This document shows positions 8,410-57,707 of a stretch of DNA of 64,000 bases, piece by piece; the first letter of the stretch is position 1, and every line of letters begins with the position of its first letter. The notes under the pieces are model-generated. The model worked only from the letters and a program-made list of their open reading frames with translations. It had not been told where the DNA came from and searched no databases. The position numbers and the translations under genes were made by a program. Source of the stretch: Peptococcaceae bacterium BRH_c4a (GTDB lineage Bacteria; Bacillota; Desulfotomaculia; Desulfotomaculales; Desulfocucumaceae). The DNA is taken from positions 1 through 64,000 of the forward strand of contig LADN01000020.1 in NCBI GenBank assembly GCA_000961585.1, read 5' to 3'.

Positions 8410-9331
8410 TTTTATGAATATGTACTCAGATCTCGAAAAAGATCTTTTAGGAAATCAGAAAAAGCTAATGATTTCATCTTCACTTAGTGTTTATTACGGA
8501 ATTAACGGCGATGGCAATTTTAGATTGTCTTTTATGTCATCGGTCATTCCTCCAAAGATGGAATCAACTAAGTTGCTGAAAGTGTCGCAGTTTGAGGAAA
8601 GTGATGCTGTTTATTGGACATGCTTTGACCTGATGCAGTCCACAGCCAAGCAAGTGTTTTATACTTTTTGCGGAGATATTGTCAGTTCAGTTTACGATAT
8701 TCAGGATGAGCATAAAGCTCTTATACTGTTAAAAAACCGTTTTCATACATGGAAAAGCATGTTTAAGCGTGACATAAGCAAAATTACCGATGAAATGATC
8801 AAAGGACTGCTTGGCGAACTGTATTTTTTGAGGGAATTTATGATTGTAAAATACGGTATTGATGATGCGATTGAAATATGGAGCGGTCCTGACGGAGCAA
8901 ATAAAGATTTTTCAAAAGGTACTGACTGGTATGAGGTTAAAACAGTATCTGCGAACATGATAAGTGTCAAAATATCGTCGGTAACTCAACTTTCCTCGGC
9001 TACTCCGGGTCACTTAGCAATTATCCGGCTTGAATCAATGTCTTCACAATTTGAAGATGGTCAGTCAAGTGTAGGCGAGTTATTCCAATCAGTTTTACGA
9101 TTGATTGAAGCGGATGAAACCAGAGAGAAATTCTTGGAAAAATTAATTTCATACGGATTTGATCTTTCGGATGATTGCTGTAATGTAAAGTATAAAATTC
9201 TGTCTTGTACGCTGTACAAAGTGGACGATGAATTTCCCAGGATACAGGAAACTGATGTTAAATTTCAGGAAATATGCAAATTGAGTTATGAACTTATTAT
9301 AAATGCCCTTGAGAGATTCAGAGAGGAATAG
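8402..9331 (+). CDS. PD-(D/E)XK-type protein (DUF4420/PF14390-like)
   Basis: I place the start at the ATG at 8402, behind GAGGAGGAACTCGAAG, rather than the longer frame from 8369, giving 309 residues. GLLGELYFLREFMI (about residue 138) followed by GPDGANKDFSKGTDWYEVKT has the shape of a PD-(D/E)XK nuclease site: an early glutamate, a D in NKDF, and E-x-K in YEVKT. This layout is the mark of the DUF4420 family, which accompanies Z1 proteins in the same clusters. It is the most likely DNA-cutting subunit. It overlaps the Z1 gene by 8 bp and is 5 bp from the next gene. Confidence 0.8.
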   Translation: MIDFMNMYSDLEKDLLGNQKKLMISSSLSVYYGINGDGNFRLSFMSSVIPPKMESTKLLKVSQFEESDAVYWTCFDLMQSTAKQVFYTFCGDIVSSVYDIQDEHKALILLKNRFHTWKSMFKRDISKITDEMIKGLLGELYFLREFMIVKYGIDDAIEIWSGPDGANKDFSKGTDWYEVKTVSANMISVKISSVTQLSSATPGHLAIIRLESMSSQFEDGQSSVGELFQSVLRLIEADETREKFLEKLISYGFDLSDDCCNVKYKILSCTLYKVDDEFPRIQETDVKFQEICKLSYELIINALERFREE

Positions 9332-9336
9332 GCACC

Positions 9337-11424
9337 ATGGAACTGAATGAATACAGAGAATATGTTATTAACCAAATTAAGGCTACCGCTATCGAAGAAC
9401 AAAGATATCCCTATGAGGTTTTTATTGATTTTGTCGCTGACATTATGGTTAGTGATTATTCTATGTTCTCTGGTATTGAACAGTGCTATTTCTCTCTATC
9501 AACAGGCAATAAGTCATTTAAGAGTATGCACATTGATGCAGGTTCTCTAGAGCTTTCAACCAATACTCTTAATTTAATGATTGCCGATTTTAATGACGGT
9601 AAGCTTGCGAATATAAACAGCAGTGATGTTAACGCTTCAATCGCATCCATGATAAATTATTTTGAAAACTGTCTTAAAGGATTCTTTGTATCTGCAGAGC
9701 AATCAGATCCTGCTGTACAGTTAGCTATTGAAACAAGAAGAAATCTCGAATCTATTTATAAGCTACATCTGTTTATTGCCGGTACCGATCAGCTTAGTAA
9801 GAGGGTTAAGAATATAGAACTGAAAGACTTTACATTTAAGGGCAAAACATTTAAAGTCGAGCTTGATATAGTAGACATTGTTAAGATATTTAATGCGCAA
9901 TTAGCAACTTCGGAAAAGGAAGATATTATAATTGATGTTACTGACTTTAATATTTCCGGTATTCAGTGTATTAGGGCAGACATAAATTCACAAAACTATG
10001 AGGCATATCTCGCGGTTGTTCCTGGAAGTTTTTTGTCAGATATTTATAAGAAATACGGTCCGCGGCTTCTTGAAGGAAATGTACGTTCATTTTTGCAGTT
10101 GCGTGGCGGAGTAAACAAAGGTATCCGCGGAACCATCCTTAACGAACGCGAAAAATTCTTTACATACAATAACGGAATTTCAACAACTGCCAAAAGCATC
10201 GAATTAAAAGAAATACAGGGTAAAGGTTTGTGCATTACCTCTTTTAAAGATTTTCAGATAATAAACGGAGGACAAACAACAGCATCTTTGGCCTCTGCGA
10301 CGATAAAGGATAATGCACTTTTGGACGGAATATTTGTCCAAATGAAGCTGACAATAGTAAAAAATGAAGATGCTGAATTTATTCGCAACATTTCTCGGTA
10401 TGCCAACAGCCAAAATAAAGTTACAGCGGCTGACCTTAACTCCAACCATCCTTTCTACAACCGTATTGAAGAATATTCCCGCAAGATTTATGCTCCGGCC
10501 GTAAATAATCAAACATATCAAACTATATGGTTTTTTGAACGTTCCAGAGGTCAGTATGATCAGCCCAAGATGAAAATGACAAAGAGTGAACGTGCGACAT
10601 ATGAAAGAATCAACCCCAACAGTCAGAAATTTGATAAGACGGATTTGGCAAAGTACATTAATTCAGATGAAATGAAGCCTTACGATGTTGCGTGGGGTAA
10701 AGAAATCAATGCGACTAGATTCCAAGCTGAAATGGAAAAACAGTGGGAGAAGAACGATTCGGTATTTAATGAATCATACTACCGCGACCTTATTGCAAAA
10801 GCTATAACCTTTGGAACTATTCGAAAAACAATACTGGGTTTAGAATGGTATAAAGAAAACAAAGGATATTTAATTCAGTTGGTTACTTATTCTTTTGCAA
10901 AACTAATATATGAAATTACAAAACTGAAGAAATTTATAAATTACAAGTATATATGGGACAAGCAGGAATTGCCAGATTTTATTATTGAAGATGTTGCCGG
11001 TATTGCTAAATTGGCTGCTGAAACATTTTATGATCCAAGCAGAACAAACGGTAATATAGAAACTTACTGTAAGTCCAAGGTATGCTGGGATAATTTAAGT
11101 GCTAAAATATACAATCTCTCGGATAAAACTAAAGCATTTTTAAAAGAAGAAGATGAAATAAAGATTGAAAAAATACATGCTAAAAAAGAACAAAAGTTTA
11201 ATAACAGTCTTAACATTGAAATTCAAGTATTTACATTAGGCTCTGAATATTGGAAAAGATTGATGGAAACTGGCAGTGCACAAAAATTACTTACTCAGAT
11301 GGATATAAAAGATTTACAGGATGCAATTGCTTACTGCAACGGCGTTAAATCATTGCAACCTTATCAGTTCTCCCGAATTTGGGCAATTAGAACGAAGCTG
11401 GGAGAAGCTCAGGTGCCGATATAA
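9337..11424 (+). CDS. AIPR (abortive infection phage resistance) family protein
   Basis: This 695-residue protein contains the AIPR core (PF10592-like): LQLRGGVNKGIRGTILNE, then FFTYNNGIS and FQIINGGQTTASL at residues about 250-320, followed by the FIRNISRYANSQNKV segment. It is also flanked by the other members typical of the Mza layout. AIPR proteins are linked to abortive infection against phages, and their biochemical action is still poorly defined. The ATG at 9337 has AGAGAGGAATAG close upstream, and the gap to the preceding stop is only 5 bp. The C-terminal third is lysine-rich and helical. Full length is likely. Confidence 0.88.
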   Translation: MELNEYREYVINQIKATAIEEQRYPYEVFIDFVADIMVSDYSMFSGIEQCYFSLSTGNKSFKSMHIDAGSLELSTNTLNLMIADFNDGKLANINSSDVNASIASMINYFENCLKGFFVSAEQSDPAVQLAIETRRNLESIYKLHLFIAGTDQLSKRVKNIELKDFTFKGKTFKVELDIVDIVKIFNAQLATSEKEDIIIDVTDFNISGIQCIRADINSQNYEAYLAVVPGSFLSDIYKKYGPRLLEGNVRSFLQLRGGVNKGIRGTILNEREKFFTYNNGISTTAKSIELKEIQGKGLCITSFKDFQIINGGQTTASLASATIKDNALLDGIFVQMKLTIVKNEDAEFIRNISRYANSQNKVTAADLNSNHPFYNRIEEYSRKIYAPAVNNQTYQTIWFFERSRGQYDQPKMKMTKSERATYERINPNSQKFDKTDLAKYINSDEMKPYDVAWGKEINATRFQAEMEKQWEKNDSVFNESYYRDLIAKAITFGTIRKTILGLEWYKENKGYLIQLVTYSFAKLIYEITKLKKFINYKYIWDKQELPDFIIEDVAGIAKLAAETFYDPSRTNGNIETYCKSKVCWDNLSAKIYNLSDKTKAFLKEEDEIKIEKIHAKKEQKFNNSLNIEIQVFTLGSEYWKRLMETGSAQKLLTQMDIKDLQDAIAYCNGVKSLQPYQFSRIWAIRTKLGEAQVPI

Positions 11425-11444
11425 TCAGAAGCGAGATAATATAA

Positions 11445-11861
11445 ATGGATAACCGTTCTAAAGAAAAGCGAAGTAAAAATATGTCCCATATAAAAAGCAA
11501 AGGTACAAAACCGGAGGAAACAGTTTGTAAGTATCTGTTCTCGCAGGGCTTTCGATACAGAAAAAACGTTAAAGATCTTCCCGGTCATCCGGATATAGTT
11601 TTGCCTAAATATAAAGTAGCTGTGTTTGTCAACGGGTGTTATTGGCATGGTCATGAAGGCTGTAAATACTTTGTCCTTCCAAAAAGCAACGTTGATTTTT
11701 GGTTAAATAAAATTGAGTACAATAAACGGAGAGATAAAGCAAATCACGAAAAGCTTGAACAGCTTGGGTGGAATGTGCTCACTGTTTGGGAATGTGAGAT
11801 ACGGCATGGAGACAAAGAAAAAGCACTATCAAATTTAGTTGACCAGATAAGATCTGTTTAG
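11445..11861 (+). CDS. vsr: very short patch repair (Vsr) mismatch endonuclease
   Basis: This 138-residue protein opens with RSKNMSHIKSKGTKPEETV, the Vsr N-terminal DNA-binding part. It then has RKNVKDLPGHPDIVLPKYKV, with the catalytic Asp in PDIV, and VFVNGCYWHGHEGCKYF, with Cys/His zinc ligands and catalytic His. Vsr nicks beside T:G mismatches that arise when 5-methylcytosine deaminates, so its presence beside a C5 methylase is functionally coherent: it repairs damage caused by the methylase. It lies 20 bp after AIPR and ends the cassette, with hairpins following. It is the expected length. Confidence 0.95.
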   Translation: MDNRSKEKRSKNMSHIKSKGTKPEETVCKYLFSQGFRYRKNVKDLPGHPDIVLPKYKVAVFVNGCYWHGHEGCKYFVLPKSNVDFWLNKIEYNKRRDKANHEKLEQLGWNVLTVWECEIRHGDKEKALSNLVDQIRSV

Positions 11862-12030
11862 GATAGAGCATGGTATGAAAGAGAGTGATCAAAATAAGGA
11901 AAATGCCGTGCAGTTAAGAAACAGTACGGCTGAGTTTTTAATTTTGCTTTACAGGCCAGCGAAAAAATAGCCCTTTATTCAGTAAATGCCATATATCTAA
12001 TTGTAGACTCAACTAATGGGAAGCATATAT
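11862..12030. other. non-coding spacer between vsr and parA remnant
   Basis: No gene is seen. GCCGT (11905-11909) and ACGGC (11926-11930), followed by TGAGTTTTTA, form a weak terminator for the defence operon. Confidence 0.4.
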
Positions 12031-44523: not shown

Positions 44524-44593
<70 letters not shown>

Positions 44594-44616: not shown

Positions 44617-44692
44617 GGGAGCATAGCTCAGCTGGGAGAGCGCTTGCCTTACAAGCAAGATGTCGGCAGTTCGATCCTGTCTGCTCCCACCA
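44617..44692 (+). tRNA. tRNA-Val (anticodon TAC)
   Basis: 76 nt with CCA. The acceptor stem GGGAGCA/TGCTCCC, anticodon loop CTTACAA closed by TTGC/GCAA, and T-arm with TTCGATC are all normal. Confidence 0.96.
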
Positions 44693-45405: not shown

Positions 45406-46476
45406 TCACAGCACACTGTTAAACCCTTTATCGCTCAACGCCTGCACCACCTTTTTTATCTCCTGGGTTCGGCTTTTGTGGCAGATTAGCAGGCTGTCAT
45501 GGTCGTTTACAATGATCAGGTTTTTGACTCCTAATAGCGCAACGGTCTTGTTGGAGATTATATATGTATTTAGCGTATCCAGCAGGACCCCCTGACCATG
45601 AAGGACGTTGCCCAGCTCGTCCTTTTCATCGTATTTTTCCAGGGCGTTCCAGTTACCGATGTCGTCCCACCCGAAGTCGCAGGGAATGACTAAAACATTG
45701 TCGGCCCGTTCCATTATGCCATAATCAATGGAGACCTTCGGAAGTTCCGAATAAACTTTATCAATCTTTTTGGGGTACCGGTCAGTTCCCAGGCTGCTTT
45801 CGATCTCCTTAAGCCCCTCTGCCAGCGAGGGAATGTGTTTTTCTATCTTTTTGCGGATCATGTCGATCCGCCATACAAACATGCCGCTGTTCCAGAGGTA
45901 GTCCCCGCTGGAGAGTAATTCCAGGGCCCGGGCGTAGTCCGGTTTTTCCAGGAAGCGGACGGCCCGGTAAGCCGGTATCCCGGCTATGGTGTCAGCCAGC
46001 TGGCCGCAATTAATGTAGCCGTATCCTGTTTCAGGGCTGTGGGGGGTGATGCCCAGGGTGATGATTTTTTCCCCTTTGGCTGCGACCGCTACGGCACTTC
46101 TCAGTACTTCCTGAAAATTGCGCACATTGCCGATATAATGGTCGGCCGGTAGAACAATCATAACCTCCCGGGGATTTTTCCGTCCCAGGGTCAGGGCGGC
46201 CAGCCCTATGGCCGCAGCCGTGTCCCTGCCAAAGGGCTCGATAATTATATTTTCTTCGGGCAATTCAGGGACCTGTTCCATGATGGTATCTTTAAATTCC
46301 AAACCGGCCACAATATAAGTGTCCGATATTCCTACCAGGCCCTGGATCCTTTCTACGGTTAACTGCAGCATTGTCTTTTTGCCGATGAGGTTCAAGAATT
46401 GCTTTGGCTTTGCCATTCTGCTCCGCGGCCAGAACCTTTCTCCTCTGCCGCCGGCCATAATAACTGCGAAAGGCAC
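45406..46476 (-). CDS. manC: mannose-1-phosphate guanylyltransferase
   Basis: This 356-residue enzyme makes GDP-mannose from mannose 1-phosphate and GTP. VIMAGGRGERFWPRSRMAKP followed by KQFLNLIGKKTML is the nucleotide-binding signature, IMIVLPADHYIGN the substrate-binding loop, and FLEKPDYARALELL the family F-x-E-K-P motif. Only the pyrophosphorylase domain is present; there is no C-terminal PMI domain. It starts with GTG behind AAAGGGGGAAA. It is divergent from the glycosyltransferase/GH130 genes and is their donor supplier; it can also recharge mannose 1-phosphate released by the phosphorylases. Confidence 0.95.
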   Translation of the reverse strand: MPFAVIMAGGRGERFWPRSRMAKPKQFLNLIGKKTMLQLTVERIQGLVGISDTYIVAGLEFKDTIMEQVPELPEENIIIEPFGRDTAAAIGLAALTLGRKNPREVMIVLPADHYIGNVRNFQEVLRSAVAVAAKGEKIITLGITPHSPETGYGYINCGQLADTIAGIPAYRAVRFLEKPDYARALELLSSGDYLWNSGMFVWRIDMIRKKIEKHIPSLAEGLKEIESSLGTDRYPKKIDKVYSELPKVSIDYGIMERADNVLVIPCDFGWDDIGNWNALEKYDEKDELGNVLHGQGVLLDTLNTYIISNKTVALLGVKNLIIVNDHDSLLICHKSRTQEIKKVVQALSDKGFNSVL

Positions 46477-46608: not shown

Positions 46609-47622
46609 ATGAAAATAGCCATGCTTTCTCCCATAGCCTGGAGGACTCCCCCGCTTGGGTACGGCCCCTGGGAGCGGGTGGTGTCGCTGCTGACCGAGGG
46701 ACTTGCCGTCAGGGGGATTGACGTGACCCTTTTCGCCACCGCCGACTCCGTAACACAGGCGAAACTCCACGCCATCGCACCGAGGCCCTATGAGGAGGAC
46801 AAGACCCTTGACCCGAAGGTATGGGAGTGCCTTCACATATCCGAGCTGTTTGAAAGGGCTGGGGATTTCGATTTAATCCATAATAATTTTGATTTTCTGC
46901 CCCTTACGTATTCAGGCCTGACAGACACCCCGGTACTCACCACCATTCACGGGTTTTCATCACCCAAGATCCTTCCTGTATACAGAAAATATAACCGCAA
47001 GACTTATTACGTATCCATAAGCAACGCCGACCGATCGCCGGAGCTTGACTACATTGACACTATCTACCACGGGATCGACCTTGAAAACTTCACTTTTCAG
47101 GAGACACCAGGGGACTACCTGCTATTTTTTGGCCGCATTCACCATGACAAGGGTGCTGCGGAGGCTGTTCAAATTGCCAGGCAAACCGGGATGAGGCTGA
47201 TTCTGGCGGGTGTTATCCAGGACAGAGATTATTACAGCTCGGTGGTTGAGCCCCACCTCGGCGGTGTTGTCAGTTATGTGGGGGTGGCCGGGCCAGAGCT
47301 CAGAAATGAGCTGCTTGGAGGAGCGAGGGTGCTGCTTCACCCGATAAACTTCAATGAGCCCTTCGGGCTTTCTGTTGTGGAGGCGGGAGCCTGCGGAACG
47401 CCTGTGGTGGCCTTCAGCAGGGGCTCCATGCCGGAAATCATAGAAAACGGCGTCAACGGCTTCCTGGTTTCCGACGTTTCTTCCGCAATAGAGGCGGTAC
47501 GCAGCCTGGATGCCATATCACGCCGGAAGTGCAGAAAGATAGTGGAGGAGAGATTTTCAAGAGAACGCATGGCGGACGATTATTTGAGGGTTTATCATCA
47601 AATTATCGATAAAAAAGTATAA
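46609..47622 (+). CDS. family 4 glycosyltransferase (GT-B)
   Basis: This 337-residue protein has a GT-B fold. The N-terminal acceptor domain includes YGPWERVVSLLTEGLAVRGI and HNNFDFLPLTYSGLTDTPVL; the C-terminal donor domain has FGRIHHDKGAAEAVQIARQT and the nucleotide-sugar loop FNEPFGLSVVEAGACGTPVV (E-x7-E motif). It lacks signal peptide or membrane helices and is cytoplasmic. The ATG at 46609 follows GCAGGAGG. Its neighbours (manC, GH130, GT fusions) suggest GDP-mannose as donor, by inference. The GH130 gene starts 18 bp downstream. Confidence 0.9.
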   Translation: MKIAMLSPIAWRTPPLGYGPWERVVSLLTEGLAVRGIDVTLFATADSVTQAKLHAIAPRPYEEDKTLDPKVWECLHISELFERAGDFDLIHNNFDFLPLTYSGLTDTPVLTTIHGFSSPKILPVYRKYNRKTYYVSISNADRSPELDYIDTIYHGIDLENFTFQETPGDYLLFFGRIHHDKGAAEAVQIARQTGMRLILAGVIQDRDYYSSVVEPHLGGVVSYVGVAGPELRNELLGGARVLLHPINFNEPFGLSVVEAGACGTPVVAFSRGSMPEIIENGVNGFLVSDVSSAIEAVRSLDAISRRKCRKIVEERFSRERMADDYLRVYHQIIDKKV

Positions 47623-47640: not shown

Positions 47641-48588
47641 ATGAGTCCTGAGAAGCTGGCGCCCACTGTCCAGAGGTACGCCGGGAACCCTATACTGACC
47701 AGGGATGATGTGCCCTACCCCGTGGCCACAGTTCACAATGCGGGTGTGGTGAAAGCAAATGGACGTTATTTTATGGTCTTTCGCTCGCACCTCTTAAATG
47801 GCCGCTCCATTTTGGGTCTGGCTGAAAGTGCGGACGGCTATTCATTTAAAGTACGGCCCGAGCCTTTCATGGTTCCGCTGCGGGACGGGGTTTGGGGCGA
47901 GTACGAGGAGTACGGCGTCGAGGACCCGCGCATCTGCCATATTGACGGGGATTTTCTGATCACCTACAGCGCCTATTCCAGGCACGGGGTGAGAATCGGC
48001 CTGGCCAGGACCAGAGACTTTGTATCCGTCGAGCGAATTTCAATGATCACCCAGGCGGACCTGCGCAATGTGGTTATCTTCCCGCAGAAGTTTGGCGGGC
48101 GCTACGTCCGGCTGGACCGGCCCCATTCCGAAATCAGCCCCTGGTCTATGTGGATTTCCTACTCACCCGACCTTGTTCACTGGGGCGATTCAAGGGTCAT
48201 AGTAAAGCCGGCTGGCTACCACTGGGATGAAATGAAGATAGGTCCCGGCGCCACACCTTTCAGGACTGAAAAAGGTTGGCTGAACATCTACCACGGAGTC
48301 TTTCGCACCATGGACGGGGCTGTTTACAGGTTGGGCGTTATTCTCCACCACCTGCATGACCCGTCGAAAATATTGGGTGTTGCTGACCAGTGGATTCTTC
48401 AGCCTGAAGATCCCTGGGAGATTACGGGCTACGTTCACAATGTGGTCTTTACCTGTGGGGCTGTTCCCGAGGAGGATGGCACGGTAAAGATTTACTGGGG
48501 CGGCGCAGATAAGGTTATGTGCGTCGGCGCCGCCAACATCAGTGACCTTGCGGCCATGTGCCTGGAGAAATCAAGGAGTCCTATGTAG
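47641..48588 (+). CDS. GH130 family mannoside phosphorylase
   Basis: This 315-residue protein has a five-bladed beta-propeller pattern typical of GH130: RYAGNPILTRDDVPYPVATV, VFRSHLLNGRSILGLAESAD, the catalytic block EEYGVEDPRICHIDGDFLIT (Asp in E-D-P-R), WDEMKIGPGATPF and HGVFRTMDGAVYRLGV. GH130 enzymes use phosphate to release mannose 1-phosphate from beta-mannosides, often beta-1,2-mannans or mannosyl-glucose. It has no signal peptide and so acts in the cytoplasm. A second GH130 domain lies in the fusion protein downstream. Exact linkage specificity cannot be read. Confidence 0.9.
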   Translation: MSPEKLAPTVQRYAGNPILTRDDVPYPVATVHNAGVVKANGRYFMVFRSHLLNGRSILGLAESADGYSFKVRPEPFMVPLRDGVWGEYEEYGVEDPRICHIDGDFLITYSAYSRHGVRIGLARTRDFVSVERISMITQADLRNVVIFPQKFGGRYVRLDRPHSEISPWSMWISYSPDLVHWGDSRVIVKPAGYHWDEMKIGPGATPFRTEKGWLNIYHGVFRTMDGAVYRLGVILHHLHDPSKILGVADQWILQPEDPWEITGYVHNVVFTCGAVPEEDGTVKIYWGGADKVMCVGAANISDLAAMCLEKSRSPM

Positions 48589-48755: not shown

Positions 48756-51062
48756 TTGCGTCAAAAAGAGATAAATCCATGTTTTATTAGTTCATATATA
48801 CCAAAAGAGTGTGGGATTGCTACTTTTACGCACAATTTGTTCACTTCATACCAAAATTTGTATGCATCAGCCGGAAAAATTGTAGCAGTAGGTGTACTTC
48901 CTGAAGGTAACTATCCCCCGGAAGTCAATTTTTTCTTTGACAAAAATAAAGTATCCGACTACACCAGAGCCGCTGGGGACATCAATGCAACTGACCTGCA
49001 GGTGGTCAACCTTCAGCACGAATTCGGCCTGTATGGCGGTCCTGAGGGACGCCATATTGCAAGGCTGCTGGAAAAGCTAAAAAAACCAGTTGTAACAACT
49101 ATCCATACTGTACTTCAAGAACCCACTCTGGGTTATTATACCTCCCTCATCGAGGTTATCCAACGCTCCCAGCGGGTATTAGTAATGAGCAACAAAGCTA
49201 TTGAGATCCTTCAGGAGATATACTACGTGCCCCGGGAGAAAATCGTGATGATCCCGCACGGCGTGCCCGATCTTCCTTTTGTTGAGACAGAGTATTTCAA
49301 AAAGGAACTGGGCCTGGCCGGTCGTTTTGTGCTCCTTTCCTTTGGCCTGTTGAGCCCCGGGAAGGGATTCGAGCTTGTCCTGGAAGCCCTGCCCGAAGTC
49401 GTCCGCAACCACCCCGATTTGCTGTACATTATACTTGGAAAAACCCACCCGGAAGTGGCTAAGATTCATGGGGAAAGGTATCGTGAGAGCCTTCAGAAAT
49501 TGGTTTACGAAAAACAACTGGAAAATAACGTGCTGTTTATCGATAAATTTGTAACGAACGAAGAGCTGTATAACTACATCAGCGCCTCCGACGTGTATGT
49601 AACTCCCTATCTCTCTCAAGAGCAGATCACCAGCGGGACGCTGGCTTATGCTGTGGCGCTGGGCAAGGTGGTGGTCTCCACCCCCTACCATTATGCCCAG
49701 GAAGTGCTTGCCGAAGACCGTGGTCACCTGGTGCCCTTCAATAACCCGAAAGCGCTGGCCAGGACCCTGAGCTGGATTTTATCCCACCGGGAGGACATGC
49801 CCAAGATGCGCCTGGCCGCTTACGAATACGGGCGATCGATGATCTGGCCCAGGGTAGCCGAGCTTTACCACGACCTGTTTAAAGAAGTTTATAAAGAATT
49901 TTCGTTGAAAAAATTACAGAAAATAAGCGTGGTCTACAAGAACAGCCAGGATTATCTGAGAAGACGCAATTTGTACAGGATGTTTCTGCGTATGACTGAT
50001 GATACCGGCATCTTCCAGCATACCAAATACGGTATTCCAGACCTGAAGCATGGTTACTCCGCCGATGATGTCGGGAGGGCACTGGGGATAATTATGAAGG
50101 TGGCCTGCGTTGACAAGGAGCCCGGCTATTATCAACTGGCCCAAAAATACCTTGCCTTCATACTTTATGTGCAGAAAGAGGACGGGCGTTTCCATAATTT
50201 TGTAGGTTACGACCGTCGAATTTTGGACGAAGACGGTGGCGATGATACCTTTGGCCGCATATTGATGGGGCTGGGCAGTGCTGTGGCCCTGAGTACGGAC
50301 CAGTCTGTGGCCACTCTGGCAAAGGAAATATTCGACCGGGCCATAGTAGGCCGGGAAACGGGACTGCCGCTGTCCACCTATCCAAAGTCGGTGGCCTACG
50401 GCATTTGTGGATTATCCGAATACTTCAAGAAATTTCCTGAGGCACAGGAGGCGGGCGAACTGCTCAGGGCAGGAGCAGATTACCTGGTCAAACTCTACAA
50501 AGAGAATAAAAGGCCGGACTGGGACTGGTTTGAGCCCTCTGTTACCTACTCCAATGCCAAGCTGCCCTTCGCCCTGATGATGGCGCACGGCATCCTTAAG
50601 GAAAAAGTTTATCTGGAAACGGCACTGGTGACTTTAAACTTTCTGACCAGCATACAGTATAATGGCACTTACTTCGACCTGGTGGGAAACAAGAACTGGC
50701 TTGTTTGCGGGGAGGAGAGGGCTTTTTTTGATCAGCAGCCCGTAGAGATTGGCTGTCTGGTAGAAGCATACTGCGAGGCCCTGCGACAAACCAATGACAA
50801 AAACTACCGTGACCTGGCAAATAAAGCCTTCAGCTGGTTTTTCGGCAAAAACAAACGGGGAGAGTTGGTGTATAACCTGAAGGAGGATTATCCTCTGGAC
50901 GGTCTCACCGAAACGGGCAGCAATGCAAACAGCGGAGCAGAATCGGTGTTGGCCTTTGCCCAGGCCATAACTTGCCTGAAAGAAGTAAGTATACGCAAAA
51001 ATCTCGGCCGAAAAACAGAGCTGGCAAAAACAATAAAAGATCCGTATCCGGTCGGCAACTAG
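48756..51062 (+). CDS. GT4 glycosyltransferase fused to an (alpha/alpha)-barrel domain
   Basis: This 768-residue protein starts with TTG at 48756 behind GAGGAAGGTG. Residues 1-395 are a GT-B glycosyltransferase: FISSYIPKECGIATFTHNLF, VVNLQHEFGLYGGPEGRHIA, LLSFGLLSPGKGFELVLEAL and a donor-loop region ending TPYLSQEQITSGTLAYAVAL. Residues about 400-750 are helical with internal similarity (ALGIIMKVACVDKEPGYYQL, DGRFHNFVGYDRRILDEDGG, SYSNA-like and GCLVEAYCEAL segments), as in (alpha/alpha)6 glycosidase-type barrels. A short overlapping frame (48713-48790, with AAGGAAGGAG) may couple translation. It likely transfers and trims or senses a mannose polymer; this is inferred from context. Confidence 0.82.
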   Translation: MRQKEINPCFISSYIPKECGIATFTHNLFTSYQNLYASAGKIVAVGVLPEGNYPPEVNFFFDKNKVSDYTRAAGDINATDLQVVNLQHEFGLYGGPEGRHIARLLEKLKKPVVTTIHTVLQEPTLGYYTSLIEVIQRSQRVLVMSNKAIEILQEIYYVPREKIVMIPHGVPDLPFVETEYFKKELGLAGRFVLLSFGLLSPGKGFELVLEALPEVVRNHPDLLYIILGKTHPEVAKIHGERYRESLQKLVYEKQLENNVLFIDKFVTNEELYNYISASDVYVTPYLSQEQITSGTLAYAVALGKVVVSTPYHYAQEVLAEDRGHLVPFNNPKALARTLSWILSHREDMPKMRLAAYEYGRSMIWPRVAELYHDLFKEVYKEFSLKKLQKISVVYKNSQDYLRRRNLYRMFLRMTDDTGIFQHTKYGIPDLKHGYSADDVGRALGIIMKVACVDKEPGYYQLAQKYLAFILYVQKEDGRFHNFVGYDRRILDEDGGDDTFGRILMGLGSAVALSTDQSVATLAKEIFDRAIVGRETGLPLSTYPKSVAYGICGLSEYFKKFPEAQEAGELLRAGADYLVKLYKENKRPDWDWFEPSVTYSNAKLPFALMMAHGILKEKVYLETALVTLNFLTSIQYNGTYFDLVGNKNWLVCGEERAFFDQQPVEIGCLVEAYCEALRQTNDKNYRDLANKAFSWFFGKNKRGELVYNLKEDYPLDGLTETGSNANSGAESVLAFAQAITCLKEVSIRKNLGRKTELAKTIKDPYPVGN

Positions 51063-51121: not shown

Positions 51122-54100
51122 ATGGGCGTTGAACGGTTGAACGATTTAGAGGCACTTTTCAACGAGAGCATTAATGAGGCTATTGAGAAGGCAAAGGTGT
51201 TTAATGAAGTAGATGTGGTAATCGGCATCCCTTTTTATAATGAAAAAGATATCCTGCCGGAAGTGCTGAAAGTGCTGGATGAGGGGCTGGCCAATCTTCA
51301 GGACATGAGCAAGTCTCTAATAGTCTGCGTGGGGGACCCCGTAGGGGCAGAAACGCTGGAATCCATCAGACGTCTGGATTTAAAGGCCCCTCACCTCGAA
51401 TTTCTGATGAAGCCCGGGAGCAACGGCAGGGGGGCCAGCATAAGGGCGATACTGGAGATAGCCAATATGCTCGAGGCCGATGCGGTTATATTTGCGGCCG
51501 ACCTGAGGCGGGAGGAAGGCAGGGGGCTGCAGTCCGACTGGATCGGGCGCCTTATAGAACCCATCAGAAAAGAATATGATTTCGTGGTGACATCTTTCCA
51601 CAGGCACTATTTTGAGAACCTTTTGGGAAGCCTTTTCACGGCCCAGCTGCTGGAGGTATTTTACGGATACAATGTCAAGGGCTCTTTGAGCGGTGTTTAT
51701 GCCATGTCCCACGACACCGTGGAGGATTTTTGCGCCGATATAAAATTTTGGATTGACACCACACAGGGGTTTGGAATCGACCCCTGGCTGGTTAGCCGGG
51801 CTATGCGCTGGAACAAAAAGATTTGCGAGGTGGAGCTGGGCACCAAGTTTGGGGAAATCTCCATTGAAAAACTAAATTACATTTTTAAGGAAAACGCCAG
51901 ATCATTGTTTGAATGTATAAAGAGGGATGAGGATTACTGGACCGGCAGCAGGTTAATCATCAGGACGCCCGATATTTATGGCGGCAGGACCAATGAGAAA
52001 CCCTACAAGCCTACCCCTTCTGTCCTTCGGGACCTGACCCGGTTCAGATACAGTTACAGCCAGTACAAAATACTTTGTGACACATCATACTACGACCACC
52101 TTTACGAAGGCAGCAAAGACATTGAGTGGGTACCTGACAAAGAGCTCAGCATAGAGGGAAAAACATGGGCAGATATCGTATACCGCATGCTGTTTAAGTA
52201 CGGGTTTGTCACCGGCGTGTGCAGCGACGATCTCCTGGACGAACTCACTTTTGCCTTCAACGGGAGGGTGTCCAGCTTCATTGGGAACATTCAGTCCATG
52301 GAGGAACGGCTGGGAAATATCGTTAATATTGATATAGATTTTATTCTCTCAAGTGAGGTGTCGTCGGCTAAAGAAGAACAGAGAAAAGATTTTCTAAGGT
52401 TGAGGGATCACTTTTTCCTGTTGTGGGATCAAAAGGACCTGGAAACGAAGCCGCCCCTCATCCCGGCCCACTACCTGGAATTTATACCAGGCATACCTAC
52501 CGTCCTGCCCAAAAAAATAGAGGGGCGGAAAGGCAAGGTTGTTTCGTCGGAAGAAATGTTCCACCGCCTTCAGTCCCGCTATCAGGAAGCTTTTGGCAGC
52601 TTTCTCAGCGACGGGCTGGGGACGTCGGAAAATTTAGATTCTAAAACGATAATCGGGTGTATGAAAGAATTCATGATCGAACTGGAAAAAACTATGGAAT
52701 GGCTGCTGCCGGGGGACCTGTACACCGAGGAGGGAATCGGGCAGGTAGTAGACGGCATTTTCCGGCTTTTCCACTCTCCCATGATTTTTTCCATGAAAGA
52801 CGAGCTCATAAGGGAGATGCTGCTCCGGTTTCCGCCGCTCAATGTGATGATTCCTGCGGGATGCAAGAATCCCAGGGAGCTCATTAATAAAATGGACGTC
52901 AGGGATGCCGCCAGCCTGGCCAACCTGGTTGAGACCCGGAAGCACGGGGACAGTTCACTTTTGTGGCTGCTGGACAATTTGAGGCCGGACGGAATGGACG
53001 AGGTGGAGCTCAAGCCTGTCGTACTGGGTAAAAAGGTGCTTAACGGCACAGTGAAGCTGGGGAATATCTCCGACTTCAACAAGATCGCCACCAGGATTGT
53101 GGTCGGGCCTCTGAATAAAGGTATGGGAGGGGACTACCCAAAGCTGCGCTTCTGCCTCTTTGTAGCCAGGCACATTATGATGGCCGAAAATTACGACATT
53201 CTCTGGAGAAATTACGCCAAGGAGAAAAAAAACCTTGGCGGCAAGATCCGCAACTCCCTGGTTGGGCGTTACGAGACCATTGCCTTCTCCGCACACAATT
53301 TATTTGAAAACCACCACCACCGTGCGCTGATCAGCCAGTTTCGGGCGCTGTCACAGAGGCTGGCGGATGTGGGCCAAAACGAGAAGGCCCGGCTGATAAA
53401 AAATATGTGTGACGGCTACGGCCTTAGCCAGGTCCTTGCCGACGGCACATTCCTGCCGTGCTCGGTTTGGAGTTGGTCCAGCTACAGCTACAAGGGCGGA
53501 AAGGGTATCCCTACCTCGCTTTCCAGCCATGTCGAGGAGAAGTGGTTCAACCACGACTTCCTTGAGGAAATATATGAAGAGCTGGGCTACGACCCCGGAG
53601 AAATAATGGAAACGGTGATTCAGCTCATAGGTGAGGGTAGGGCCAGCGAAAACCTTATAGACGTCCTTTTGGGAATAAGGCCCAAAGATGTGACCGTAGT
53701 GGTGCAGGAGTCCCAGGATTACCCACCGGCGAAGCAGCTTGCCAGATATGCGGGCAATCCTATGCTGAGTCCAATTAAAGAGCACCCGTGGGAAAGCAAG
53801 TATGTCTTAAACACGGCGGCCTTCCGGGTAAAAGACAGGGTCTACCTGCTCTACAGGGCGCATGGAGATGATGATGTGTCGCGGATCGGGCTGGCTGTGA
53901 CGGACGGCTGCAATGTGCTGGAGAGACTGCCGGAGCCTGTGTTTGTGCCACAGGACAAGACGGAAAAAAAAGGTGTCGAAGACCCGAGGGTGGCCATATT
54001 CGACAACAGGATATATATGCTTTACACTGCCTATGACGGTGTCATGGCACAGGTTTCGGCCGCTGCCATAGGGCTGGATGACCTGTTGAACAAAAGATTT

Positions 54101-54706
54101 GACAAATGGGAAAGAAAGGGCCTTGCTTTCCAGGACATCTGGGACAAGGACGCCATACTGTTTCCAGAAAAAATAAATGGCAAATATATTATTTACCACC
54201 GGATAGAGCCCAGCATATGGATGGTGCATCTGGATAAGCTGGAGTTTCCGGCGCCCAAAAAAAAGCACTCCATTATTCTGGGACCCCGTTCGGGATGGAT
54301 GTGGGACTCCCTGAAAATAGGAGCGGGCTCCCAGCCCATCAAGACCAAATACGGCTGGCTGCTTATCTACCACGGTGTCGACCGCAACAGGGTGTATCGC
54401 CTGGGTGTTGTCCTGGTCGATCTCGCCAATCCGGAGCGCTTACTCTACCGTTCGCCAAATCCGGTCCTCTCTCCCGAAACCGAGTACGAGATCGGAAAGG
54501 AAGGGGAGAGCTGGGTGCCAAATGTTGTTTTCACCTGCGGTGCGGTTCCGGCTCATGACAAGGAAGTGCTGGACGCCGGGGACGAAATACTGGTTTATTA
54601 CGGCGCTGCGGATACCCATATATGCCTTGCCACCGGCCGGGTCGGTGATCTGATACCGGAATCCGTCAGGCAGGAGGTTGAGAGAAAGAGCAGTCAGGAA
54701 ACTTAA
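51122..54706 (+). CDS. GT2-like glycosyltransferase fused to a GH130 phosphorylase
   Basis: In this 1194-residue protein, residues about 25-330 are a GT-A glycosyltransferase: DVVIGIPFYNEKDILPEVLK, KPGSNGRGASIRAILEIANM and DAVIFAADLRREEGRGLQSD (metal-binding D-x-x motif region), then an acceptor helix part. Residues about 330-865 match nothing I recognise and are mostly helical. Residues about 870-1185 are a full GH130 propeller: QLARYAGNPMLSPIKEHPWE, KKGVEDPRVAIFDNRIYMLY, DSLKIGAGSQPIKTKYGWLL and WVPNVVFTCGAVPAHDKE. One chain therefore holds both sugar transfer and phosphorolysis. It has no signal peptide. The ATG follows ACGGAGGTTT. The linker is the part most likely to hold something new. 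Confidence 0.88.
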   Translation: MGVERLNDLEALFNESINEAIEKAKVFNEVDVVIGIPFYNEKDILPEVLKVLDEGLANLQDMSKSLIVCVGDPVGAETLESIRRLDLKAPHLEFLMKPGSNGRGASIRAILEIANMLEADAVIFAADLRREEGRGLQSDWIGRLIEPIRKEYDFVVTSFHRHYFENLLGSLFTAQLLEVFYGYNVKGSLSGVYAMSHDTVEDFCADIKFWIDTTQGFGIDPWLVSRAMRWNKKICEVELGTKFGEISIEKLNYIFKENARSLFECIKRDEDYWTGSRLIIRTPDIYGGRTNEKPYKPTPSVLRDLTRFRYSYSQYKILCDTSYYDHLYEGSKDIEWVPDKELSIEGKTWADIVYRMLFKYGFVTGVCSDDLLDELTFAFNGRVSSFIGNIQSMEERLGNIVNIDIDFILSSEVSSAKEEQRKDFLRLRDHFFLLWDQKDLETKPPLIPAHYLEFIPGIPTVLPKKIEGRKGKVVSSEEMFHRLQSRYQEAFGSFLSDGLGTSENLDSKTIIGCMKEFMIELEKTMEWLLPGDLYTEEGIGQVVDGIFRLFHSPMIFSMKDELIREMLLRFPPLNVMIPAGCKNPRELINKMDVRDAASLANLVETRKHGDSSLLWLLDNLRPDGMDEVELKPVVLGKKVLNGTVKLGNISDFNKIATRIVVGPLNKGMGGDYPKLRFCLFVARHIMMAENYDILWRNYAKEKKNLGGKIRNSLVGRYETIAFSAHNLFENHHHRALISQFRALSQRLADVGQNEKARLIKNMCDGYGLSQVLADGTFLPCSVWSWSSYSYKGGKGIPTSLSSHVEEKWFNHDFLEEIYEELGYDPGEIMETVIQLIGEGRASENLIDVLLGIRPKDVTVVVQESQDYPPAKQLARYAGNPMLSPIKEHPWESKYVLNTAAFRVKDRVYLLYRAHGDDDVSRIGLAVTDGCNVLERLPEPVFVPQDKTEKKGVEDPRVAIFDNRIYMLYTAYDGVMAQVSAAAIGLDDLLNKRFDKWERKGLAFQDIWDKDAILFPEKINGKYIIYHRIEPSIWMVHLDKLEFPAPKKKHSIILGPRSGWMWDSLKIGAGSQPIKTKYGWLLIYHGVDRNRVYRLGVVLVDLANPERLLYRSPNPVLSPETEYEIGKEGESWVPNVVFTCGAVPAHDKEVLDAGDEILVYYGAADTHICLATGRVGDLIPESVRQEVERKSSQET

Positions 54707-54750: not shown

Positions 54751-55698
54751 ATGAAGCCTTATCCCCTATTATTTAAACCTTCATTAAAAAAGCGCATATG
54801 GGGAGGTTCAAAAATAAAAGAAATTTTTGGTTATCCAGGTCCATGTGAAAATATTGGCGAAGCTTGGGTTGTTTCAGATCATCCTGAAGGTAAGAGTATT
54901 ATTATAAATGGTGAATTTTCAGGGGAGTCGTTAGGTGTATTGTTAGAAAAATGTCCTGAATGGTTTGCTAACATTAATTTAGAAAAATTCCCTTTATTAG
55001 TTAAGGTATTAGATGCAAATGATAATTTATCTATTCAGGTTCACCCGGATGATCAATATGCCATGAGAAATGAAAATGGAGCAAGTGGTAAAGCAGAATG
55101 CTGGTATGTGATAGACTCCGAACCTGGAGCCGAAATTATCTTTGGTCATAATGCCAAAAACAGAAGTGAATTTATACAATTATCAAAAGAGAATAAATGG
55201 GATCAATTACTTGCACCAGTCCCAGCCAGGGCGGGAGATTTTTTCTTTATTCCCAGTGGTACGGTGCATGCAATGGGAAAAGGGATTTTACTACTCGAAG
55301 TACAACAAAACTCAGATATAACCTACCGAATCTATGATTATGAGAGAAAAGGTTTAAATGGCGAAAAAAGGGATTTGCATTTTGAGAAAGCCATTGAAGT
55401 AATTGATTTTCAATCTACAGGTTATAAACCTAAACCTTATACAGTTGAAGAAGATTTCGCAATAACAACTTTAGTATCATGCAATTACTTTACCGTAGAA
55501 AGATGGCTGATTAAAAGCACACATGATTTAAAGCTTTTTAAAGTTTTTTTATTAATCTTTATTGTTAATGGAAGTGGAGAACTTATCTATAATGATGGTT
55601 CTATATTATTAACAAAAGGCACCAGCATTATGATTCCGGCCAATATGGGTGAATGTCGAATTGTTGGTAAAATTGAGGCGATAATAAGCTATATATAA
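54751..55698 (+). CDS. manA: mannose-6-phosphate isomerase, class I
   Basis: This 315-residue cupin enzyme interconverts fructose 6-phosphate and mannose 6-phosphate. RIWGGSKIKEIFGYPGPCEN, then IGEAWVVSDHPEGKS is the N-terminus; NLSIQVHPDDQYAMRNENGA followed by SGKAECWYVIDSEPGAEIIF carries the zinc ligands (Q, H, and E of K-A-E-C); FFFIPSGTVHAMGKGILLLE gives the last His. It is a short, Firmicutes-type enzyme. Its DNA is strikingly more AT-rich than the neighbouring GC-richer fusion gene, suggesting separate acquisition. No phosphomannomutase is in the window. Confidence 0.94.
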   Translation: MKPYPLLFKPSLKKRIWGGSKIKEIFGYPGPCENIGEAWVVSDHPEGKSIIINGEFSGESLGVLLEKCPEWFANINLEKFPLLVKVLDANDNLSIQVHPDDQYAMRNENGASGKAECWYVIDSEPGAEIIFGHNAKNRSEFIQLSKENKWDQLLAPVPARAGDFFFIPSGTVHAMGKGILLLEVQQNSDITYRIYDYERKGLNGEKRDLHFEKAIEVIDFQSTGYKPKPYTVEEDFAITTLVSCNYFTVERWLIKSTHDLKLFKVFLLIFIVNGSGELIYNDGSILLTKGTSIMIPANMGECRIVGKIEAIISYI

Positions 55699-55725: not shown

Positions 55726-56493
55726 TCAATACTGCAGCCTTGAGTTTTGCAGGTAATCGCAAACGAAATCCTCTCCCCTGAAAATGTTAAACTTCGTTTC
55801 AACATGATCGGGCATAAAGGTGAGGTTATTAACCAGTATCCTCACCATGAAATTCCTTATGGTGATATCCGGACCGGAAAGGTTTTTTCCGAATACCCTG
55901 TCCATGGTGGAAAAGCATTGATCAAAGGCTGTATTTGACTGGTGGGGCATGGCGTGGGAGATAACCAGTATTTCGGTATACTTTCTTTCCATGAAGGTGC
56001 CCACATTGCCGGCCATAATCTTCATGCCGCTTTCCTTAAAAAGCCCCAGGCTTTCCTCCAATGGGCTTATACCACACCAGAAATACGACCAGGGGTTTTC
56101 CCCGGGGATAGTTTTTTCGCCTGATTTAACGTTTTTTACCAGGATACCGTCATCCTTCCGGAAAAGCTCAACAATCCCATGCTTTCCGGTAGCTTTGCAG
56201 TAGGCCTCCGCCGGTCCGGTCCTGGAGCAGGTAAATATTCTTTGGAAGTTCACAATGATTTCAGAATGATATTGGATAGACGGCAGTGATTTTAATGACT
56301 GTAAAACACTGACCACCAGTTCCTGAACGCTGCCTCCAAAGGGGGAAGTTGTTGACAGGGTAATGTCTTTGCTTTTACTCAGTGAAAACATTGATTTTAC
56401 GCGCATTGCCAGTAGCGCTGCAAGAGCCAGAATTATAAGCAATACCGGCAGAAAAAGCATCCTTGCCATTTTGTCCTTTTCGCTCCTGTCCAT
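55726..56493 (-). CDS. membrane-anchored protein of unknown function
   Basis: This 255-residue protein has one membrane helix at residues about 10-30 (ARMLFLPVLLIILALAALLA), then an external part with no motif I recognise: SPFGGSVQELVVSVLQSLKS, IIVNFQRIFTCSRTGPAEAY, PGENPWSYFWCGISPLEESL. It is convergent with manA and 86 bp downstream of another reverse-strand gene, perhaps an operon. The outer domain has a few scattered Cys. I make no functional claim. Confidence 0.65.
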   Translation of the reverse strand: MDRSEKDKMARMLFLPVLLIILALAALLAMRVKSMFSLSKSKDITLSTTSPFGGSVQELVVSVLQSLKSLPSIQYHSEIIVNFQRIFTCSRTGPAEAYCKATGKHGIVELFRKDDGILVKNVKSGEKTIPGENPWSYFWCGISPLEESLGLFKESGMKIMAGNVGTFMERKYTEILVISHAMPHQSNTAFDQCFSTMDRVFGKNLSGPDITIRNFMVRILVNNLTFMPDHVETKFNIFRGEDFVCDYLQNSRLQY

Positions 56494-56579
56494 TTATGAT
56501 TTTTATTCGCCCCGGCTGACAGGATACCCTTTAACAGTTCCCAAAAAAATTCACCTTATGGAGATATGTTTTAAACCAA

Positions 56580-57707
56580 TCATTTGTACGACAGGCTTAT
56601 GGTGACTTTTTCCTCGGATATGTCAATTCCAGTCAGTTTATACAGTTTCATGCTTTCCGGCAGGGGCAGGCGGAATCCTGAATTTGCGGCCAGTTCACCA
56701 AGTACTTCAGTGGTTACAGGGATTTCGTCCAGGATCATACTCTTGATTCCCAGTTTTACCGCAGTGTTTTCTCCCACAGGGATCAGAGTCCCTCCAAGGG
56801 TGAAAGTGGAATTGGATTTGGTATCCTTTCCGGTCAACATAAAAATGCCCTGCTTCAGGTTAACGGAAAGACCCCTGAGGTTTTCATCCGGGGACCGCTG
56901 TAGAGCCCCGTTAAGATTTTTTTCAGATATCTCCACTGAAACACCGCCGGGGCCTAACCATAACCTGTCCGGCTCCACGTTTTGCCAGGGGAATCTGGCT
57001 GCCGCCCCTATCAGTAAATCAAAAAGATTGATGGATGAAAGGAGCTTTCTTTCCAGCAAGGTCACTTGCTGGGCCAGGTCCCGGGAGGTTCTTTTTATCT
57101 TTTCAAGGTATTCCTGGCGCTGTTCAGAAATCTTTTTAACGTCTTGTATTTGAACCCCCAGGGCCTTATTCCGGCGGTCCAGCCCTTCAACAACATCATT
57201 GAGAGCTTTCTCCTTCTGCAGAGAGGCTATACAGGCATTTTCAGCCTGTTTGCATGTTTTACCCTGCTGATCCAGTATAAAGGAAACCATAATGGATCGG
57301 TTTAACAGATCGCTAAGGCTGGAGGATTTAATTAAAATGTCTAAAAGGCTCCAGTAGCCATAGCGGTACTGAAAATTTATCCAGGGGCTTACCTTCAGTA
57401 AGCTGTCTTTTTTTATTTCCAGGGCTTCATTAAATTCATCCAGGGCGTCATTTCTTTTTTGCCGGGTTTCTATGAGATCTTTTTCAATCAGATTCTTTTT
57501 TTCTTCGGCCTTTTTTTGTTTAAGATCCAAAACCAGAAGCTCCTGAGTCAGTAAATAAGCATCTCCCTCCAGGACGGATATGGCCTGATGGGACTTTTGC
57601 CTTTGATCCCCCTCCGCCCTGCTAAAAGACGGATAAATGCTGGAATAGAAAATAATTGCCGCTATAATTGATATTATTAAAGGTATATTCACAACATTCC
57701 CCGGCAT
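56580..57707 (-). CDS. secreted or membrane-anchored coiled-coil protein, unknown function
   Basis: This 375-residue protein has a signal/anchor helix at residues 5-25 (VNIPLIISIIAAIIFYSSIY), then a long coiled coil (about 35-110 and 150-215; heptads rich in Lys, Glu, Leu such as KQKKAEEKKNLIEKDLIETR) interrupted by WINFQYRYGYWSLLDILIKS, the arrangement seen in PcsB/EnvC-like wall-hydrolase regulators. The C-terminal 150 residues are beta-rich (GVSVEISEKNLNGALQRSPD, KLGIKSMILDEIPVTTEVLG) with no hydrolase motif. It may regulate envelope work, by resemblance only. AAAGGAAG precedes the ATG. Confidence 0.65.
   Translation of the reverse strand: MPGNVVNIPLIISIIAAIIFYSSIYPSFSRAEGDQRQKSHQAISVLEGDAYLLTQELLVLDLKQKKAEEKKNLIEKDLIETRQKRNDALDEFNEALEIKKDSLLKVSPWINFQYRYGYWSLLDILIKSSSLSDLLNRSIMVSFILDQQGKTCKQAENACIASLQKEKALNDVVEGLDRRNKALGVQIQDVKKISEQRQEYLEKIKRTSRDLAQQVTLLERKLLSSINLFDLLIGAAARFPWQNVEPDRLWLGPGGVSVEISEKNLNGALQRSPDENLRGLSVNLKQGIFMLTGKDTKSNSTFTLGGTLIPVGENTAVKLGIKSMILDEIPVTTEVLGELAANSGFRLPLPESMKLYKLTGIDISEEKVTISLSYK

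Follow-up and report, generated by a model that had tools for sequence, protein, structure and literature searches.

A recurrent fusion of a GT-A domain, a large middle region and a GH130 phosphorylase-type domain as a candidate enzyme of a bacterial beta-1,2-mannan cycle

Within the 64,000-nt stretch of Peptococcaceae bacterium BRH_c4a DNA analysed here (the window, part of a draft genome of 3.49 Mb in 98 contigs), one uninterrupted frame on the + strand (51122..54706; ATG at 51122, stop codon at 54704-54706) encodes a 1194-aa protein in which a GT-A domain, a large middle region and a GH130 domain follow one another in a single chain. The frame, its Pfam matches and its one-piece homologues together confirm the fusion noticed by a first-pass annotation: a domain of transferase type shares one chain with a mannoside phosphorylase that looks intact, here within a GDP-mannose gene neighbourhood. 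No earlier report of the fusion was found in the open-licence literature that we searched, and one may have been missed. No transmembrane segment is predicted in it (maximum Kyte-Doolittle-19 value, 1.33).

Our favoured reading, in which our confidence is evenly balanced, is that this protein works in the cytosol as a soluble enzyme of three parts, within an endogenous cycle of beta-1,2-mannan (or beta-1,2-manno-oligosaccharides). Its GH130 domain, at the C-terminus, would add or remove beta-1,2-mannose at the non-reducing end by way of alpha-mannose-1-phosphate and phosphate, the N-terminal GT-A domain, apparently built like mannosylglycerate synthase (MGS), would probably take GDP-mannose to initiate or supply the chain, and the remaining part of the middle, which we call domain X and which lies between them, may hold or process the chain or acceptor. 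Released mannose-1-phosphate could be recycled by a neighbouring guanylyltransferase, and the balance of GDP-mannose and phosphate would set the direction, as the first-pass annotation had proposed. Supporting this cycle are the kinship and retained residues of the GH130 domain, the suggestive structural resemblance of the GT-A domain to the GDP-mannose-dependent MGS, the domain order shared with cyclic glucan synthase, and a gene context, described below, of mannose and glycosyltransferase genes with neither transporter nor secreted hydrolase among the neighbours examined. The sequences themselves show the architecture, its conservation, the retained GH130 residues and the gene context; linkage, donor, role of X and direction of flux belong to the proposal.

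The fusion is not a chance event, because the one-piece architecture recurs, far beyond chance, in two surveys. With the middle as query, strong matches (E <= 1.2e-105) were obtained in 48 of 398 genomes sampled across this bacterial phylum (~12%, about one in eight), nearly all of them within a single ORF of ~1170-1275 aa; two additional matches were weak and partial. A scan of a genome contig collection gave 22 fusion loci, several cut by contig ends or split, mostly in Desulfotomaculum, Pelotomaculum, Peptococcaceae and Syntrophomonadaceae metagenome-assembled genomes (MAGs); the named genomes closest to that of the window are MAGs that carry the labels Peptococcaceae, Pelotomaculum and Desulfotomaculum. 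The middle was not convincingly found without its partner domains in the sampled genomes of the phylum, and no relatives of it appeared in the viral contigs or plasmids searched. Two MAG records titled Actinobacteria and Deltaproteobacteria (L009 and L015; middles 91% and 77% identical) carry fusions that match those of a genome of the window's genus (G001) and one of the same order (G019), so these record titles look wrong.

The GH130 assignment is clear. Residues 872-1176 (53735..54649, + strand) match PF04041 at 182.8 bits against a cut-off of 26, with the best stretch at 895-1176 and PDB matches starting from 872. The closest solved relatives are the characterised Thermoanaerobacter beta-1,2-mannoside phosphorylases Teth514_1789 (7fip, E 3e-60) and Teth514_1788 (9fj8, E 1e-55), and TM1225 and other beta-1,4-type enzymes rank behind this pair (E 4e-32 and worse). 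In a tree, all sampled fused GH130 domains form one clade beside the Teth514 pair, and the operon's stand-alone GH130 falls elsewhere. The two Teth514 proteins (PMC4264767) share the catalytic and specificity residues of the fusion but are stand-alone enzymes of ~300 aa, the fused domains forming a separate sister clade, and identity to known enzymes is only ~40%, which counts against the cycle that we propose.

The residues of this domain argue for a beta-1,2-mannoside phosphorylase. Following E953, the Asp of the EDPR motif (D954) is present, as are K1009, K1065 and H1084, in 53/53 homologues with a complete GH130 domain; D954, K1065 and H1084 are as in 7fip. In GH130 hydrolases the basic residues that bind phosphate are lost, and Lys199 of BT3780 is a beta-1,2 determinant that both Teth514 enzymes share and beta-1,4 enzymes lack (Cuskin et al., PMC4599007). 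K1009 sits where Teth514_1788 and Teth514_1789 have Lys and where the beta-1,4 enzymes 1vkd and 4udg have Arg; from its spacing and this replacement, we infer that it is the equivalent of Lys199. Judged by its residues, the fused GH130 domain would be of the phosphorylase and not the hydrolase type.

The N-terminal domain (residues 1-285; 51122..51976, + strand) is a GT-A domain with the motifs GIPFYNE, NGRGxS, xADL in place of DxD, and GxDPW. Its match to the GT2 family PF00535 at residues 34-167 scores 16.2 bits, under the cut-off of 23.3. A profile built from 41 homologues of this domain matched GtrB sll0501 (E 2e-6), ArnC (4.5e-5) and also DPM synthase among PDB entries, GpgS was matched by 5 of the 41 members, and in PHROGs the whole protein hit only the GtrB-like phrog_841, over the GT part; structural matches are to GtrB and MGS. 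The DxD motif is non-canonical: of 55 homologues, 54 have another residue for its first Asp (position 125 being Asp in the remaining one), 48 keep D127 and 46 keep D220, next to an invariant G218 and W222.

A second copy of the fusion in one genome (L068 in G157; 8334-11984, - strand) has an eroded GT-A domain, with identities of 36% for the GT part, 61% for X and 75% for GH130, and with SSY and ANRE at the sites of the nucleotide motifs. Since this copy has lost those motifs while X and GH130 stay conserved, the transferase is, as judged from these alignments, the least protected part of the protein, and L068 offers a natural test of the need for it. The earlier suggestion that one chain could both extend and shorten the same polymer thus divides: the phosphorylase looks intact, but the extending half is not secured, owing to the non-canonical DxD and the erosion of the GT domain in L068.

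These features, with the loss of D127 in seven of the 55 homologues, also speak against the cycle as proposed, as the transferase may be inactive or a binding module. In the fullest form of this alternative, which we consider possible but doubtful, the GT-A domain has degenerated and, no longer catalytic, serves as a sensor or docking module for nucleotide sugars, and GH130 and X work by phosphorolysis or reverse phosphorolysis only. The faster divergence of GT relative to GH130 in distant loci fits such a loss of function. However, GIPF, G102-R103-G104, G218 and W222 are nearly invariant as a set, which exceeds what a dead domain should retain, and the GT domain is never deleted among the complete homologues examined.

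The surrounding genes point to mannan metabolism. Upstream and divergent lies a gene for mannose-1-phosphate guanylyltransferase, the enzyme of GDP-mannose synthesis (45406..46476, - strand; PF00483, PF22640). It is followed on the + strand by a GT4 glycosyltransferase (46609..47622), a second, stand-alone GH130 (47641..48588), another GT4 protein with a C-terminal domain of ~370 aa (48756..51062), the fusion, and the mannose-6-phosphate isomerase ManA (54751..55698); two PGM/PMM genes are found elsewhere in the genome. The C-terminal domain of the second GT4 protein has no Pfam match and is toroid-like, related to YPO2471 (7tem; profile match, E 3e-11). Of 42 loci, 33 have this GT4-toroid partner close to the fusion, either as one fused gene or, in distant genomes, as two adjacent genes. 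The stand-alone GH130 falls outside the beta-1,2 clade and has Asp for His in its HR motif; because Arg takes the place of the beta-1,2 Lys, it probably acts on another substrate than the fused domain.

Several further features of these loci were seen. After ManA come two ORFs on the - strand (55729-57707), the first with no Pfam match and the second with a weak PcsB coiled-coil match only. In two congeners (L009:1351-2652 and L017:1350-2717, - strand), a GDP-mannose pyrophosphorylase gene carries a TGA codon at the Trp of the conserved DFGW motif; outside that codon the frame is uninterrupted and conserved, and the TGA may be an inherited nonsense change or a site of read-through.

Phosphate normally drives GH130 enzymes towards breakdown, which favours reading the fusion as a catabolic salvage enzyme that turns imported beta-1,2-mannosides into mannose-1-phosphate, its transferase part being incidental. 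This explanation, which we regard as quite unlikely, sits poorly with the fused transferase and the GT4 partner, both of which argue for synthesis, with the neighbours examined in the window, none of which encodes a sugar transporter or a secreted hydrolase, and with the 13 of 20 genomes in which every GH130 is the fusion. Salvage is nevertheless the route proposed for the Thermoanaerobacter GH130 pair, in whose cluster ABC transporter genes occur and for which no source of beta-1,2-oligomannan was found in the genus Thermoanaerobacter (PMC4264767).

In favour of the endogenous cycle, the fusion is a concrete candidate for that source, left open in 2014, because it occurs in ~12% of the sampled genomes and also in a genome (G103) that carries, at another place, 86-87% orthologues of Teth514_1788 and Teth514_1789 side by side. 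An endogenous cycle, if true, would give bacteria not known to make beta-1,2-mannan an internal reserve or solute like the mannogen of Leishmania, and the fusion may explain how they make and recycle this unusual mannose polymer.

The first-pass annotation had left about 530 residues between the enzyme domains without explanation. Residues 290-870 do lack a sequence family, with no match in Pfam, NCBIfam or PDB sequences as a single query or as a 16- or 41-sequence profile (CCDC32 and Ctap5 gave chance-level matches only). The front of this region, however, looks transferase-like. When the whole chain is modelled, its residues 31-431 can be aligned to positions 1-381 of the Rhodothermus MGS (GT78; PDB 2bo4, 2y4j), through its GT-A and helical C-terminal domains, at Z 11.1-11.7 over 291-298 residues and an rmsd of ~12 A, a match we treat as suggestive only given a first AlphaFold model of poor confidence (pLDDT 58.7; our structure models rest on 17-21 sequences). 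A colinear sequence match supports the likeness weakly for the GT half, whose score was reached by 3 of 150 shuffles, and not at all for the helical half (36 of 150). Both proteins have a GID motif. In contrast to MGS, which matches Pfam MGS_GT and MGS_C, the N-terminal 450 residues of the fusion match neither, the first Asp of DAD is absent, and the protein is far longer. MGS is a retaining alpha-transferase, so the GT domain is not expected to make beta links itself, a further point against the proposed cycle.

On this model, residues ~290-440 probably belong to the transferase as a C-terminal helical domain of the MGS type (segment 290-445; 51989..52456, + strand); if so, the part without explanation narrows to ~415 residues (450-865). 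An ordinary extension of the transferase family would thus account for the first portion of the middle but not for 450-865. That the whole middle is such an extension without separate function is very improbable, for while the aligned model covers nearly all of MGS, MGS ends at fusion residue ~431, and 450-865 has fold matches of its own and an invariant core that persists in sequences with GT identities down to 29-30%.

Domain X itself (residues 450-865; 52469..53716, + strand) contains that core (residues 764-822; 53411..53587, + strand). Y766, F777, W783, W785, S787, G793, P797, E805, W808 and F809 are identical in 55/55 homologues, and the core stays invariant in sequences with X identity down to 31%. 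A sugar site would be expected to combine Trp and acid in this way, and the core favours the earlier suggestion that X may be a third catalytic or polymer-binding unit.

The structure prediction and remote-homology search proposed for the middle, once run, suggested the MGS-like helical part and gave, for X, no sequence family and a weak resemblance to zinc-peptidase folds. A model of residues 300-868 reached pLDDT 73.5 and pTM 0.66. Foldseek returned nothing significant (best rows ACE2, E 0.11), and a BFVD fold search returned nothing at E <= 0.001. A second structure aligner matched residues ~450-851 chiefly to zinc-peptidase folds, with best Z of 8.3-8.6 (among them 3iuk, DUF885, Z 8.3, 244 residues, 5.0 A) and with M3, M32, ACE and MATCAP at Z 4-5, values near 8 lying within the aligner's own uninformative range. 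Compared with DUF885, M2, M3 and M32 zinc peptidases, X has no sequence similarity and no HExxH zinc motif in any of the 55 homologues. When profiles of the middle were compared with those of M32, M3 and DUF885, nothing rose above the reversed controls; DUF885 against M3, both of peptidase type, likewise gave no signal, so the comparison speaks neither for nor against the relation. For MATCAP (PF08014), a search for a member to compare came up empty. The zinc-peptidase-like fold is weakly suggested by the models and is kept as a lead. If X is zincin-like, the invariant W783-x-W785-x-S787 would occupy the HExxH place, ~20 residues before the invariant E805.

A bolder version of this idea takes X as a third catalytic unit of an undescribed family, for example a transglycosylase for cyclising, branching or releasing beta-1,2-mannan, with a Trp/Glu sugar site in place of the HExxH site on a zinc-peptidase-like scaffold. 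On this view, which we hold to be unlikely, a single chain would be a complete synthase, processor and phosphorylase of mannan, equivalent for mannose to cyclic glucan synthase (Cgs). As a domain, X invites definition of a new protein family.

Cgs has the same domain order, serving initiation and elongation, processing, and length control (PMC10901819). The two proteins share a transferase, a middle and a C-terminal phosphorylase in one chain, and the Cgs polymer is beta-1,2-linked, as is predicted for the fusion. Unlike Cgs, the fusion has GH130 instead of GH94, an MGS/GT2-like domain instead of GT84 and mannose instead of glucose; it has no transmembrane helices and is less than half the size, and its middle has no detectable relation to GH189/GH144. 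No (alpha/alpha)6 toroids of the GH189/GH144 kind were among the fold matches of X, which does not exclude such a fold. The fusion may work like Cgs by design, yet it would not be a Cgs member, because families and topology differ. If the cycle that we propose is true, the transferase-middle-phosphorylase design would have arisen at least twice for beta-1,2 polymers.

A second likeness is to the GT108 mannosyltransferase/phosphorylases of Leishmania (PMC8950772), which turn over beta-1,2-mannan (mannogen) with GDP-mannose and phosphate chemistry in one protein and have a GH130-like propeller. These eukaryotic enzymes place both activities in a single propeller domain, whereas the fusion has separate domains.

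Upstream of the mannan-related genes, the window holds a tRNA cluster with a fifth tRNA-like stretch (44531-44587, + strand; 32.6 bits) that ARAGORN missed. It resembles tRNA-Val(tac) with a damaged T-arm and directly precedes the intact tRNA-Val(tac) at 44617.
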